IMG/VR virus record: IMGVR_UViG_3300049222_000308 | Coordinates: 1 to 33,193 of that record | DNA length: 33,193 bases | Reading direction: 5' to 3' (one strand) | Source of the DNA: a virus | Shown: positions 5,766-7,964 of the stretch, one piece after another | Position numbering within the stretch: the stretch's first letter is position 1 | How the letters are laid out: the number at the start of each line of letters is the position of its first letter | The notes under the pieces: generated by a model | The model's database searches: none | Seen by the model: the letters and a program-made list of their open reading frames with translations, nothing else | Told to the model about the DNA's origin: nothing | Program-made: the position numbers and the translations under genes

Positions 5766-6043
5766 GTAACGTTATCAATCTATTTTCATCAGATGATGAG
5801 CCGCCCAATGACAGGCATAAATTTCTTAATGATGAAATGGTTATAGTTTTAGCCAGCAGAAAACTGCATGAAATGATTGTTGAGAGAAATTCTGGCGTTG
5901 ATGATTGGGATGCTGATGATTTGAATTGCTTCAAGCAAGCAATCATTGAGCATATTGTTGATTGCGAAAGTGACACAGATACATGGGCTAACGTTACTAA
6001 GAAGATGCTTCGTAACATGATGCAGGAAGAAATAAATGTTTAG
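5762..6043 (+). CDS. Unknown acidic protein (93 aa)
   Basis: The start overlaps the previous stop as ATGA. The protein is strongly acidic (SSDDEPPNDRHKF, DDWDADDLN, DCESDTDTW) and helix-rich, without cysteine pairs or catalytic motifs. It lies between a winged-helix protein and the replication initiator and overlaps the initiator by eight bases, so it is probably co-expressed with the replication genes. I do not recognise the family. Confidence 0.65.
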   Translation: MSNVINLFSSDDEPPNDRHKFLNDEMVIVLASRKLHEMIVERNSGVDDWDADDLNCFKQAIIEHIVDCESDTDTWANVTKKMLRNMMQEEINV

Positions 6044-6683
6044 TCACATGGCAGAAGCTATGAAAATATCCAGCCTCGATGCGCTCACCAAATGGTTGTT
6101 GGTAAACATATGCGACCATGCCAATGAGGATGGTATATGCTGGCCTAGTCTTAACACCCTTGCTCGCAAAACCTGCATGTCAAAAGCTAGTGTTGCTAGA
6201 AAATTAAACTTACTTGAGCAAGCAGGATACATATCTCGCAAGCAAACGCCATATGCTAGCACGACCTATCACATTGTCTCACTCAGAGACAACCCTGTCT
6301 CACAGGGAGACAGCCCCCCTGTCTCACAGGGAGACTGTAAGCTACCATCTTTAACCAACCATGAAGCACCTAAAGGTAGGGCAACGCTTGTACCTTTAGA
6401 TTGGTTGCCAAGTGACAAGCTTAAAAACGAAATCAATCTTAGCCAAGATCTAAACGCAGAAGGGATAGTAAACCATGACTTTGAAACAGCTAAGTACATC
6501 GACCATTCCCACGCCAAAGGTAGAAAGCTCATCAACTTCGATGCAGGTTATAGAAACTGGTGTCGAAACGCTGTCAAGTTCGCAACAGCAAGCAGGACTG
6601 GCAAGGCTAATGGAAATAAACAATCCAATCCAAGCAACAACCAATCTGTACGCTTCCGTAAGTACCTTAATCAAGTCTCTTGA
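6036..6683 (+). CDS. Replication initiator, lambda-O-like
   Basis: This 215-residue protein probably binds the phage origin and starts theta replication. Residues about 15-72 form the HTH_36-type winged helix of phage replication proteins (LTKWLLVNICDHANEDG, CWPSLNTLARKTCMSKASVARKLNLLEQAGYI). A linker follows with the repeated peptide PVSQGD, encoded by the iterons at 6274-6337. The C-terminal part ends with a FDAGYRNWCRNAVKF motif like the F-x-x-WxRNA segment of O-type initiators, and a Ser/Asn-rich basic tail. AGGAAG precedes the ATG. Iterons within the gene and a loader-like gene just downstream match the lambda O-P arrangement. No primase or helicase is encoded nearby, so host replication proteins are probably recruited. 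Confidence 0.8.
   Translation: MFSHMAEAMKISSLDALTKWLLVNICDHANEDGICWPSLNTLARKTCMSKASVARKLNLLEQAGYISRKQTPYASTTYHIVSLRDNPVSQGDSPPVSQGDCKLPSLTNHEAPKGRATLVPLDWLPSDKLKNEINLSQDLNAEGIVNHDFETAKYIDHSHAKGRKLINFDAGYRNWCRNAVKFATASRTGKANGNKQSNPSNNQSVRFRKYLNQVS
6274..6337. other. Candidate origin: three 19-bp palindromic iterons
   Basis: Three repeats of (T/C)TGTCTC-N5-GAGAC(A/T)(A/G) lie at 6274-6292, 6295-6313 and 6319-6337. Each is an inverted repeat of 7-bp arms around five bases, perfect in the first two copies and with one arm mismatch in the third. They are spaced 21 and 24 bp apart, roughly two helical turns, and sit inside the initiator gene, as the 19-bp iterons of lambda sit inside O. This makes them the best candidate for the phage replication origin. 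Confidence 0.72.
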
Positions 6684-7092
6684 GGCGCGCCATACACAGG
6701 ACTTTACTTTATTAGGTTACAAGATAGGTAATGAGGAGTTAAGCGACCTGTACAAGGCTCTAAGCTACGTTAATAAAGCATTGGTGTCGCTTCCTCATAA
6801 GGAGATACAACAGCGCATAGCGGTTATGTGCAATGTCATTACATTAGCTAATAACTTTGATCCAGATATGCTTGCTTTGAGAGGCAAGGCGCTAGCAGAT
6901 GAGCTGGTCAAATACCCTGCTGATATTGTAGTGCATGCGTTTGAAGAAATAAAAAAGACATGCAAGTTTTACCCAAGCTTTGCAGAGTTTTATCAGCATA
7001 TAGAATTTAGATATAGACCGCGTAGATTATTGCGTGATGAACTGCATAAATGCATTGCAATTAAAGAGCGTGATGCTAGAATGCTTGAATAA
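6610..7092 (+). CDS. Probable helicase loader (lambda-P-like position)
   Basis: The start at 6610 (MEINNPIQATTN) has CAAGG four bases upstream and gives 160 residues; the frame is open further upstream but that part reads as shadow sequence. It overlaps the initiator gene by 74 bases. The protein is helical with a C-terminal region IVVHAFEEIKKTCKFYPSFAEFYQHIE-x-RYRPRRLL, resembling phage replisome organisers and loaders where a helix is followed by a 'FxPsxaEf' segment and an Arg pair. In lambda-type phages the gene after the initiator loads the host helicase, so this role is likely. No Walker motif is present, so it is not a DnaC-type ATPase. Confidence 0.62.
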   Translation: MEINNPIQATTNLYASVSTLIKSLEARHTQDFTLLGYKIGNEELSDLYKALSYVNKALVSLPHKEIQQRIAVMCNVITLANNFDPDMLALRGKALADELVKYPADIVVHAFEEIKKTCKFYPSFAEFYQHIEFRYRPRRLLRDELHKCIAIKERDARMLE

Positions 7093-7164
7093 TACAGGAT
7101 GCGTTTGCTCCAGTCCGCACCTGTATTGGGGGTGTGTTTCGTTCTGCCAATAACGCACACCCCC
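7091..7164 (+). other. Two tandem hairpins between replication and recombination genes
   Basis: AATACAGG (7091-7098) pairs with CCTGTATT (7120-7127), and GGGGGTGTG (7128-7136) pairs with CACACCCCC (7156-7164). The stems are perfect (8 and 9 bp) and follow each other without a gap; the first overlaps the preceding stop codon. No T-run follows, so an attenuator, RNA-processing site or mRNA-stabilising element is more likely than a simple terminator. AAGGAG of the next gene follows at 7173. Confidence 0.6.
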
Positions 7165-7184
7165 TACTTACCAAGGAGATTGTT

Positions 7185-7964
7185 ATGAATAGAAAAGGTT
7201 TTATCGGTGGGTCTGATTTGTACACGCTACAGCGTGGCGACTGGCACGACCTATGGGAAATAAAAACAGGCCGCAAAGAGTCAGATGATCTATCTGATTT
7301 ATTCCAAGTACAGCTTGGTACACAAACAGAAATGTTTAACCTGCAATGGTTTGAAAAGAAGTCAGGTCATATCATCGAACAGCTACAGGCTGAGTATGAA
7401 ATGAACTGGCAAGGCATTCCATGTAAAGGTCAGCTTGACGGTATCTTAGACAATGGTGATGGCATCGAGTGTAAGCATACAAATAGCCGCAAAGAAATGC
7501 GTGACATTCTTGATGCCTATATGGGGCAGGTACAGTTTTATATGTGGGTGTCTAATCGTAGTCGTATGCATATGTCTGTGATATTTGGCAACCAATGGGA
7601 TACTTGCCTGGTCAAGCGTGACGATATTCTAATGACTAAGTACAAAGCAATGATTGCAGAGTTTTGGGAGTACGTCCGTACAGATACACCGCCGCCCAAA
7701 GATAAGACTGCTACAAAAGTTGATTGGAACCATGTCGAAATAGATGGCCTGATTGCTAGAGACGCAAGCAAAGAAAATTACTTTGTCGATACAGCACAAG
7801 AATACATCCAGACATTAGAGACAGCTAAGAAAAATGAGTCTCTCAAAAAAGAACTGCGCTCAATGATTAACGATAACGAGCGTGAAGTTTTCTGTGACGA
7901 GTTGTCAATTCGTCGTGACAAGCGTGGTGCTTGTCGCATCAACATTAACAAAGGAGCCGCATAA
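7185..7964 (+). CDS. YqaJ-type viral exonuclease
   Basis: This 260-residue protein (start 7185, AAGGAG upstream) matches the YqaJ viral recombinase family, related to lambda exonuclease, which chews double-stranded ends to leave single strands for annealing. Visible motifs are GFIGGSD near the N-terminus, LGTQTE (Glu about residue 49), GQLDGIL (Asp 85), GIECKH (Glu 95 and Lys 97) and GQVQFYM (about 114-120), giving the expected D-ExK active site and the helical QxxxY segment. The C-terminal third is a charged coiled region. It is followed two bases later by the annealing-protein gene, forming a typical phage exonuclease-annealase pair. Confidence 0.85.
   Translation: MNRKGFIGGSDLYTLQRGDWHDLWEIKTGRKESDDLSDLFQVQLGTQTEMFNLQWFEKKSGHIIEQLQAEYEMNWQGIPCKGQLDGILDNGDGIECKHTNSRKEMRDILDAYMGQVQFYMWVSNRSRMHMSVIFGNQWDTCLVKRDDILMTKYKAMIAEFWEYVRTDTPPPKDKTATKVDWNHVEIDGLIARDASKENYFVDTAQEYIQTLETAKKNESLKKELRSMINDNEREVFCDELSIRRDKRGACRININKGAA

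Follow-up and report, generated by a model that had tools for sequence, protein, structure and literature searches.

How can one stretch of DNA encode a replication initiator and at the same time carry the sites from which replication starts? In-gene iterons are textbook knowledge for bacteriophage lambda, and in the searchable literature they are hardly described outside lambdoid phages. The question is raised by a virus record from IMG/VR, 33,193 bp long, the whole of which is called the window here. An earlier note on this DNA had claimed that three 19-bp iterons, 21 and 24 bp apart, lie at 6274-6337 inside a lambda-O-like initiator gene of a virus with T7-like virion genes. The virion genes indeed match podovirus-type head-tail adaptor and tail families, and the record also encodes a tyrosine integrase. 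Alongside these genes, an ArdC-type antirestriction protein (ArdcN and MPTase-PolyVal) is found at 2021-2860. What this phage presents, with its integrase and its virion genes of podovirus type, is the layout of lambda with a different site.

The initiator gene and its three inverted repeats

P0001, the product of the gene that holds the repeats (Table 1), matches Pfam family HTH_36 (PF13730, E=2.3e-14, 53.3 bits against a curated cut-off of 25) and thus belongs to it, and it also matches PHROGs 1032, 270, 8540 and 391 ('replication initiation'). The lambda-O family is absent from its Pfam matches and the iteron arms differ from those of lambda, so that the protein is not placed in the lambda O family proper; by analogy, the system is O-like in function and is filed apart from that family. 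In the AlphaFold2 model, which was built with nine sequences, a winged helix (aa 2-80) is followed by a linker (84-112) and a C-terminal helical part. As judged from this model, P0001 has the N-terminal DNA-binding winged helix/HTH that is characteristic of lambda O/ori-type in-gene iteron origins. The best fold matches in PDB are generic winged helices of the MarR/CodY type, not initiators, and a PDB sequence search gave weak winged-helix matches only. The residues S49-K50-A51-S52 constitute the tetrad that tracks the GTCTC iteron, as discussed below. The bulk of the array falls in the stretch coding for the linker, and the iterons encode residues 80-101, at the margin of the winged helix and in the linker.

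Table 1. Features of the initiator locus, with positions in the window
Feature	Position	Strand	Basis or remark
HTH_36 winged-helix replication initiator P0001, 215 aa, holding the iterons	6036..6683	+	Pfam, PHROGs, AlphaFold2
Predicted recognition helix codons, aa 50-63	6183..6224	+	DSSP of model (H50-63), helix/arm comparison
Putative iteron 1, TTGTCTCACTCAGAGACAA	6274..6292	+	inverted repeat, core 6276-6290
Low-confidence (predicted disordered) linker codons, aa 84-112	6285..6371	+	pLDDT <50
Putative iteron 2, CTGTCTCACAGGGAGACAG	6295..6313	+	inverted repeat, core 6297-6311
Putative iteron 3, CTGTCTCACAGGGAGACTG	6319..6337	+	inverted repeat, core 6321-6335
P0002, possible helicase loader, overlapping the initiator gene	6475..7092	+	synteny, fold model, weak structural match
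YqaJ/RecE-like exonuclease, next in replication/recombination operon	7134..7964	+	PF09588, phrog_434 E=5e-25

Positions and spacing of the three repeats were confirmed on the sequence: none of the copies deviates from the core GTCTC-N5-GAGAC, and the steps are 21 and 24 bp. The consensus (T/C)TGTCTC-N5-GAGACA proposed in the earlier note holds for copies 1 and 2, and copy 3 is one base off, since it ends with GAGACT and its outer T...A frame is broken there. Similarly, the repeated peptide PVSQGD comes from copies 2 and 3 only, copy 1 being read as IVSLRD. If TGTCTCN5GAGAC is searched for in the whole window with up to one mismatch, six strand-hits are obtained, all within these three sites, against 0.29 expected by chance and a maximum of two in 100 dinucleotide shuffles. 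There are thus several repeats of 17-22 bp inside an initiator gene after the HTH, just as in origins of the lambda O/ori type. Copies 2 and 3 (6293-6335) also contain a second, nested inverted repeat, CCCTG-N5-CAGGG, which when folded as RNA gives a hairpin whose loop is 3 nt long, in a region with z=-4.1; in copy 3 of the relative L006, this nested repeat is not strictly preserved.

Conservation of the repeats as DNA

Are the repeats only a by-product of a repeated peptide? They are not: when synonymous codons were permuted within the gene and the protein was kept fixed, none of 4000 shuffles matched the observed score of the array. A homologue search with the HTH domain peptide only, blind to the array, gave 29 viral loci, and sites were present downstream of the HTH in all 29 (two or three at up to one mismatch) in frames 0 and 2. 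The same repeats, for which the earlier note had advised to look in initiator genes of related phages, are there in every one of these 29 homologues. In L056 and L057, whose HTH is 66% identical to that of the window, the peptide is SQSETAVSQADTPPVSQCDT and GTCTC-N5-GAGAC is preserved, with two of the three copies read in another frame. As a case against its own reading, the earlier note had named relatives that keep PVSQGD by other codons and have no DNA repeat. What was seen is the opposite, DNA being kept when peptide and frame are changed, so that this comparison favours the note.

Codon choice tells the same story. Within 21 distinct genes of this set, 43 of the 44 Val codons of the VSxxD motif are GTC, as compared with 65 of 192 Val codons in the rest of these genes (p=3e-16), and 41 of the 44 Asp codons are GAC, as compared with 120 of 254 (p=2e-9). 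Among 66 sites in 17 non-redundant genes, frame 0 is used by 34, frame 2 by 26 and frame 1 by six, and frames are mixed within the gene in 11 of the 17. Steps between copies are 21-24 bp in 41 of 49 cases in these 17 genes. It is to be noted that the asymmetric A after GTCTC is present at 64 of the 66 sites, and the copies therefore share one orientation. In the group whose helix is S[KRN]A[ST], the letters of the arms hardly vary (62-66 of the 66 sites agree at each position), and arms are constant and spacers vary among the relatives, including copy 3 of L006. The repeats are kept as DNA sites, as those of lambda O/ori-type origins are.

Distribution of the GTCTC site

The tandem GTCTC-N5-GAGAC site was found in 44 viral contigs, as compared with none for a control palindrome whose composition and spacing were the same. 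By inspection of translations, the array lies in an ORF that has an initiator-type HTH ahead of it in 33 of the 44, and in the other 11 it lies outside recognisable initiators; arrays of the latter kind are at L042 491-886, L045 5229-5321, L023 12156-12200 and L040 415-459. In bacterial and archaeal genomes, the three-copy pattern was found at nine loci. HTH-bearing ORFs with the array occur in Thiobaca trueperi, Polyangiaceae, Phycisphaerales, Coleofasciculus and a Bacteroidales assembly, and that of Thiobaca trueperi has nine copies, mostly alternating between two frames. Most of the nine loci come from metagenome assemblies, so that their host labels are provisional. Assemblies of Desulfobulbaceae/Electronema have four to seven copies of GTCTC-N5-GAGAC with an exact 23-bp period outside a recognisable initiator (L080 1436-1565, L081 1130-1282 and L086 5133-5216). 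A peptide scan of the genome contigs gave no confirmed loci, and an alignment of ten diverse HTHs (A1) was too diverse for locus search. In the searchable literature, whose coverage leaves out most subscription journals and preprints, no report of a GTCTC-N5-GAGAC iteron was found.

Iteron arms and the recognition helix

Do other initiators of the HTH_36 family have such arrays? A de novo search revealed in-gene inverted repeats right after the HTH with different arms, among them GTGAC (Vibrio and Psychrobacter phages), GTGCA (Escherichia phage PhiR49_2 and prophages), CGGCA (a Pseudomonas aeruginosa plasmid) and GGTCA (Pseudanabaena phage Pam5). Tested against shuffles that preserve the peptide, an array was significant (p<0.05) in 41 of 60 non-redundant genes, a set that includes members picked via the DNA pattern, and in 14 of 32 genes from fresh genomes picked by protein only. 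These figures are lower bounds because the detector is conservative: it requires one perfect palindrome and misses the degenerate iterons of lambda itself. The remaining HTH_36 relatives gave no array with it. Related arrays thus recur through a large and mostly unstudied family of initiators.

Several members show peculiarities of their own. In six Vibrio phages (L282-L287), the gene of the HTH protein, which has no name in most records, contains four GTGAC-N5-GTCAC sites, the first three sharing a frame and the fourth in a different one, and it adjoins a DnaB-type helicase in several records. A very common prophage initiator family (L141-L220, at least 593 viral-contig matches), of which Escherichia phage PhiR49_2 is a named relative, has in-gene GTG[CA]A-N5-T[TG]CAC iterons, none of which is annotated in the PhiR49_2 record viewed. 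Microcystis-phage-like initiators (L092, L221-L242) have CCGAA-N5 or GCTTC-N6 arms (peptide PEAASPPK), and the register of their repeats fits the N5 rule poorly.

What then determines the arm? In sets chosen without regard to DNA, an S[KRN]A[STQ] helix goes with GTCTC in six of six cases, as against none of 41 for other helices. All six cases with Arg at helix position 3 have G at base 3 of the half-site, a rule noticed after the fact, and in fresh genomes this half of it was retested with seven of seven agreeing. The converse, non-Arg at position 3 with non-G at base 3, was kept in 15 of 15 cases of the discovery set and failed in three of seven in fresh genomes, the exceptions being the helices SRST, SRSS and SNSS, whose arms are GTGTC or GTGTA; it was therefore rejected. 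In a tree of 57 HTH domains, the GTCTC type needs four changes, one of which is forced by well-supported branches. The tree is too poorly resolved to tell a single origin of GTCTC from multiple ones, and the association of helix and arm may hence come partly from common descent. From these sequences, the arm appears to follow the recognition helix, with shared descent perhaps contributing a part of the association.

A wider proposal is that HTH_36 initiators of phages, prophages and plasmids carry their origin in the stretch that codes for the linker, in any free frame and in the form of arm5-N5-arm5' iterons, that the arm is predictable from the helix, GTCTC from S[KRN]A[ST] and G at base 3 from Arg at 3, and that GTCTC-N5-GAGAC is common to initiators of phages or genomes in at least five bacterial phyla. 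We would give this proposal an even chance of being right. A correspondence of site and helix throughout the family would be what interests specialists. Protein and site are in one gene, and each genome thus offers a natural protein-DNA pair, by which a specificity code of winged helices becomes testable and origins of uncultured phages predictable. If in-gene origins can really be predicted from the helix, both origin and specificity of thousands of uncultured phages could be read from one gene.

Replication genes and origin signs around the array

P0002 overlaps the initiator gene by about 209 bp, and its place and overlap are the same in all the relatives inspected (L056, L036, L007, L008, L025 and L041). 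No convincing match was found for it in Pfam or PHROG. Its fold model (pLDDT 83) has one plausible and weak structural match, the SPP1 G39P helicase loader 1no1 (prob 0.87, TMt 0.65, E 0.62). According to this model, P0002 looks weakly like a helicase loader. Genes next to the initiator homologues bear annotations such as DnaB-type helicase, DnaC or replication protein P.

Compositional signs of an origin were also looked for. The 150 bp downstream of the array is 56-62% AT against 57% for the window, and an AT-rich tract beside the array is thus missing; the nearest stretches with 72% AT are at 6703 and 6975. The earlier note had recommended checking for a GC-skew turn at the repeats, and this sign did not appear: cumulative skew over the window turns near 4.7 kb and 11.5 kb, at the latter of which genes change strand, and not at the array. 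Neither AT content nor skew thus speaks for an origin at the array.

A proposal for initiation and its rivals

Any explanation must start from what is observed, namely conservation of the site at the level of DNA, its place and geometry, and the way in which it goes with the recognition helix. A site kept letter for letter across frames in distant phages is a likely target of the initiator encoded there. We consider it highly probable, on these sequence grounds, that the three repeats are iterons bound by the winged helix of their own protein, and that phage replication starts inside the initiator gene, at an origin like that of lambda O which uses another iteron. That P0001 binds the sites, that they act as an origin, that strands open there and that the neighbour is a loader is what we infer, and the course of events may be as follows. 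The iteron would be an inverted-repeat site with the consensus T-GTCTCA-N4-GAGAC-A, present in direct copies, and the winged helix that recognises it would be the one encoded directly before it in this gene. Initiator molecules would occupy the three sites, which are spaced by about two helical turns and so face the same side of the DNA, and assemble an O-some-like complex that opens nearby DNA. Then, helicase might be loaded via the neighbouring loader-like P0002, and replication would begin within the initiator gene. The sites occupy codons of a predicted unstructured linker, where nearly any peptide would be tolerated.

The main rival is an operator: the winged-helix protein may bind the repeats to repress or time its own operon without any origin role. 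It is the main one because the same DNA-level evidence would also fit a binding site for expression control. MarR/CodY-type winged helices, too, are the best fold matches of P0001. However, the sites are about 240 bp into the reading frame and not at a promoter, they follow the HTH of replication-initiator-family genes that adjoin helicase or loader genes, and the equivalent sites in lambda are annotated as origin iterons. We hence regard a pure operator as improbable, and the two roles could coexist.

Could selection have acted on RNA hairpins in the initiator mRNA, for control of translation or RNA processing? The region does fold better than its shuffles (z=-4.1), yet selection of this kind would allow compensatory changes in the two arms, and the arms of the S[KRN]A[ST] group are near-invariant as described above, while in the remaining groups the two arms vary in step with the recognition helix of the protein; such hairpins have very little likelihood. 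Hardly better or worse is the chance that the repeats are a recombination or mobile-element site, or the target of another DNA-binding protein of phage or host. A minority of contigs have GTCTC arrays outside initiators, the 23-bp-period arrays of Desulfobulbaceae/Electronema being an example, but most occurrences follow an initiator HTH and the arm changes with the HTH. Least credible of all is a tandem repeat at the protein level, in which a short coding segment was duplicated and likeness of DNA reflects the recent shared history of PVSQGD: copies 2 and 3 hardly differ in their 19 bp, and one duplication may therefore well have occurred, but the synonymous shuffles contradict it as an explanation, arms are fixed while spacers vary, and the peptides and frames of relatives differ.

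Comparison with lambda and other systems

How does the proposed in-gene origin compare with systems already known? SPP1 G38P is a replisome organiser, and the pairing of initiator and loader in G38P/G39P resembles that proposed for the window, where the likeness rests on the weak fold match of P0002 to G39P. 'DNA replication protein O' of Escherichia phage PhiR49_2 and its prophage relatives is HTH_36-type, and its gene contains, behind the HTH, five inverted repeats with N5 spacers; their arms are GTG[CA]A/T[TG]CAC with an SKRS helix, as compared with GTCTC and SKAS in the window. In the literature searched, no published iterons were found for PhiR49_2. Stx phages P27 and 933W share in-gene inverted-repeat iterons with the window, theirs being six of lambda sequence, each bound singly by O, and additional iteron copies in Stx phage origins add residues to O (PMC7466680).

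In lambda (J02459), the ori within gene O has four annotated iterons of the ATCCCTCAAAACGAGGGA type, the first copy being CCCTC-AAAAC-GAGGG. The two arrays differ in their arms (CCCTC/GAGGG in lambda, GTCTC/GAGAC in the window), in copy number (four and three), in AT content of the tract adjoining the iterons (74% and 56-62%), and in the initiator, that of the window being HTH_36. They are alike as inverted repeats of the arm5-N5-arm5 form with steps of about 20-24 bp, in the A after the left arm and the CTCA/GAG core, in the place of the site after the DNA-binding domain inside the initiator gene, and in a second replication gene that follows the initiator. Thus, the likeness to lambda that the earlier note had pointed out, iterons inside an O-like initiator, is borne out by the HTH_36 and PHROG initiation matches, by conservation at the DNA level, by the 5-5-5 geometry and by the same place in the gene.
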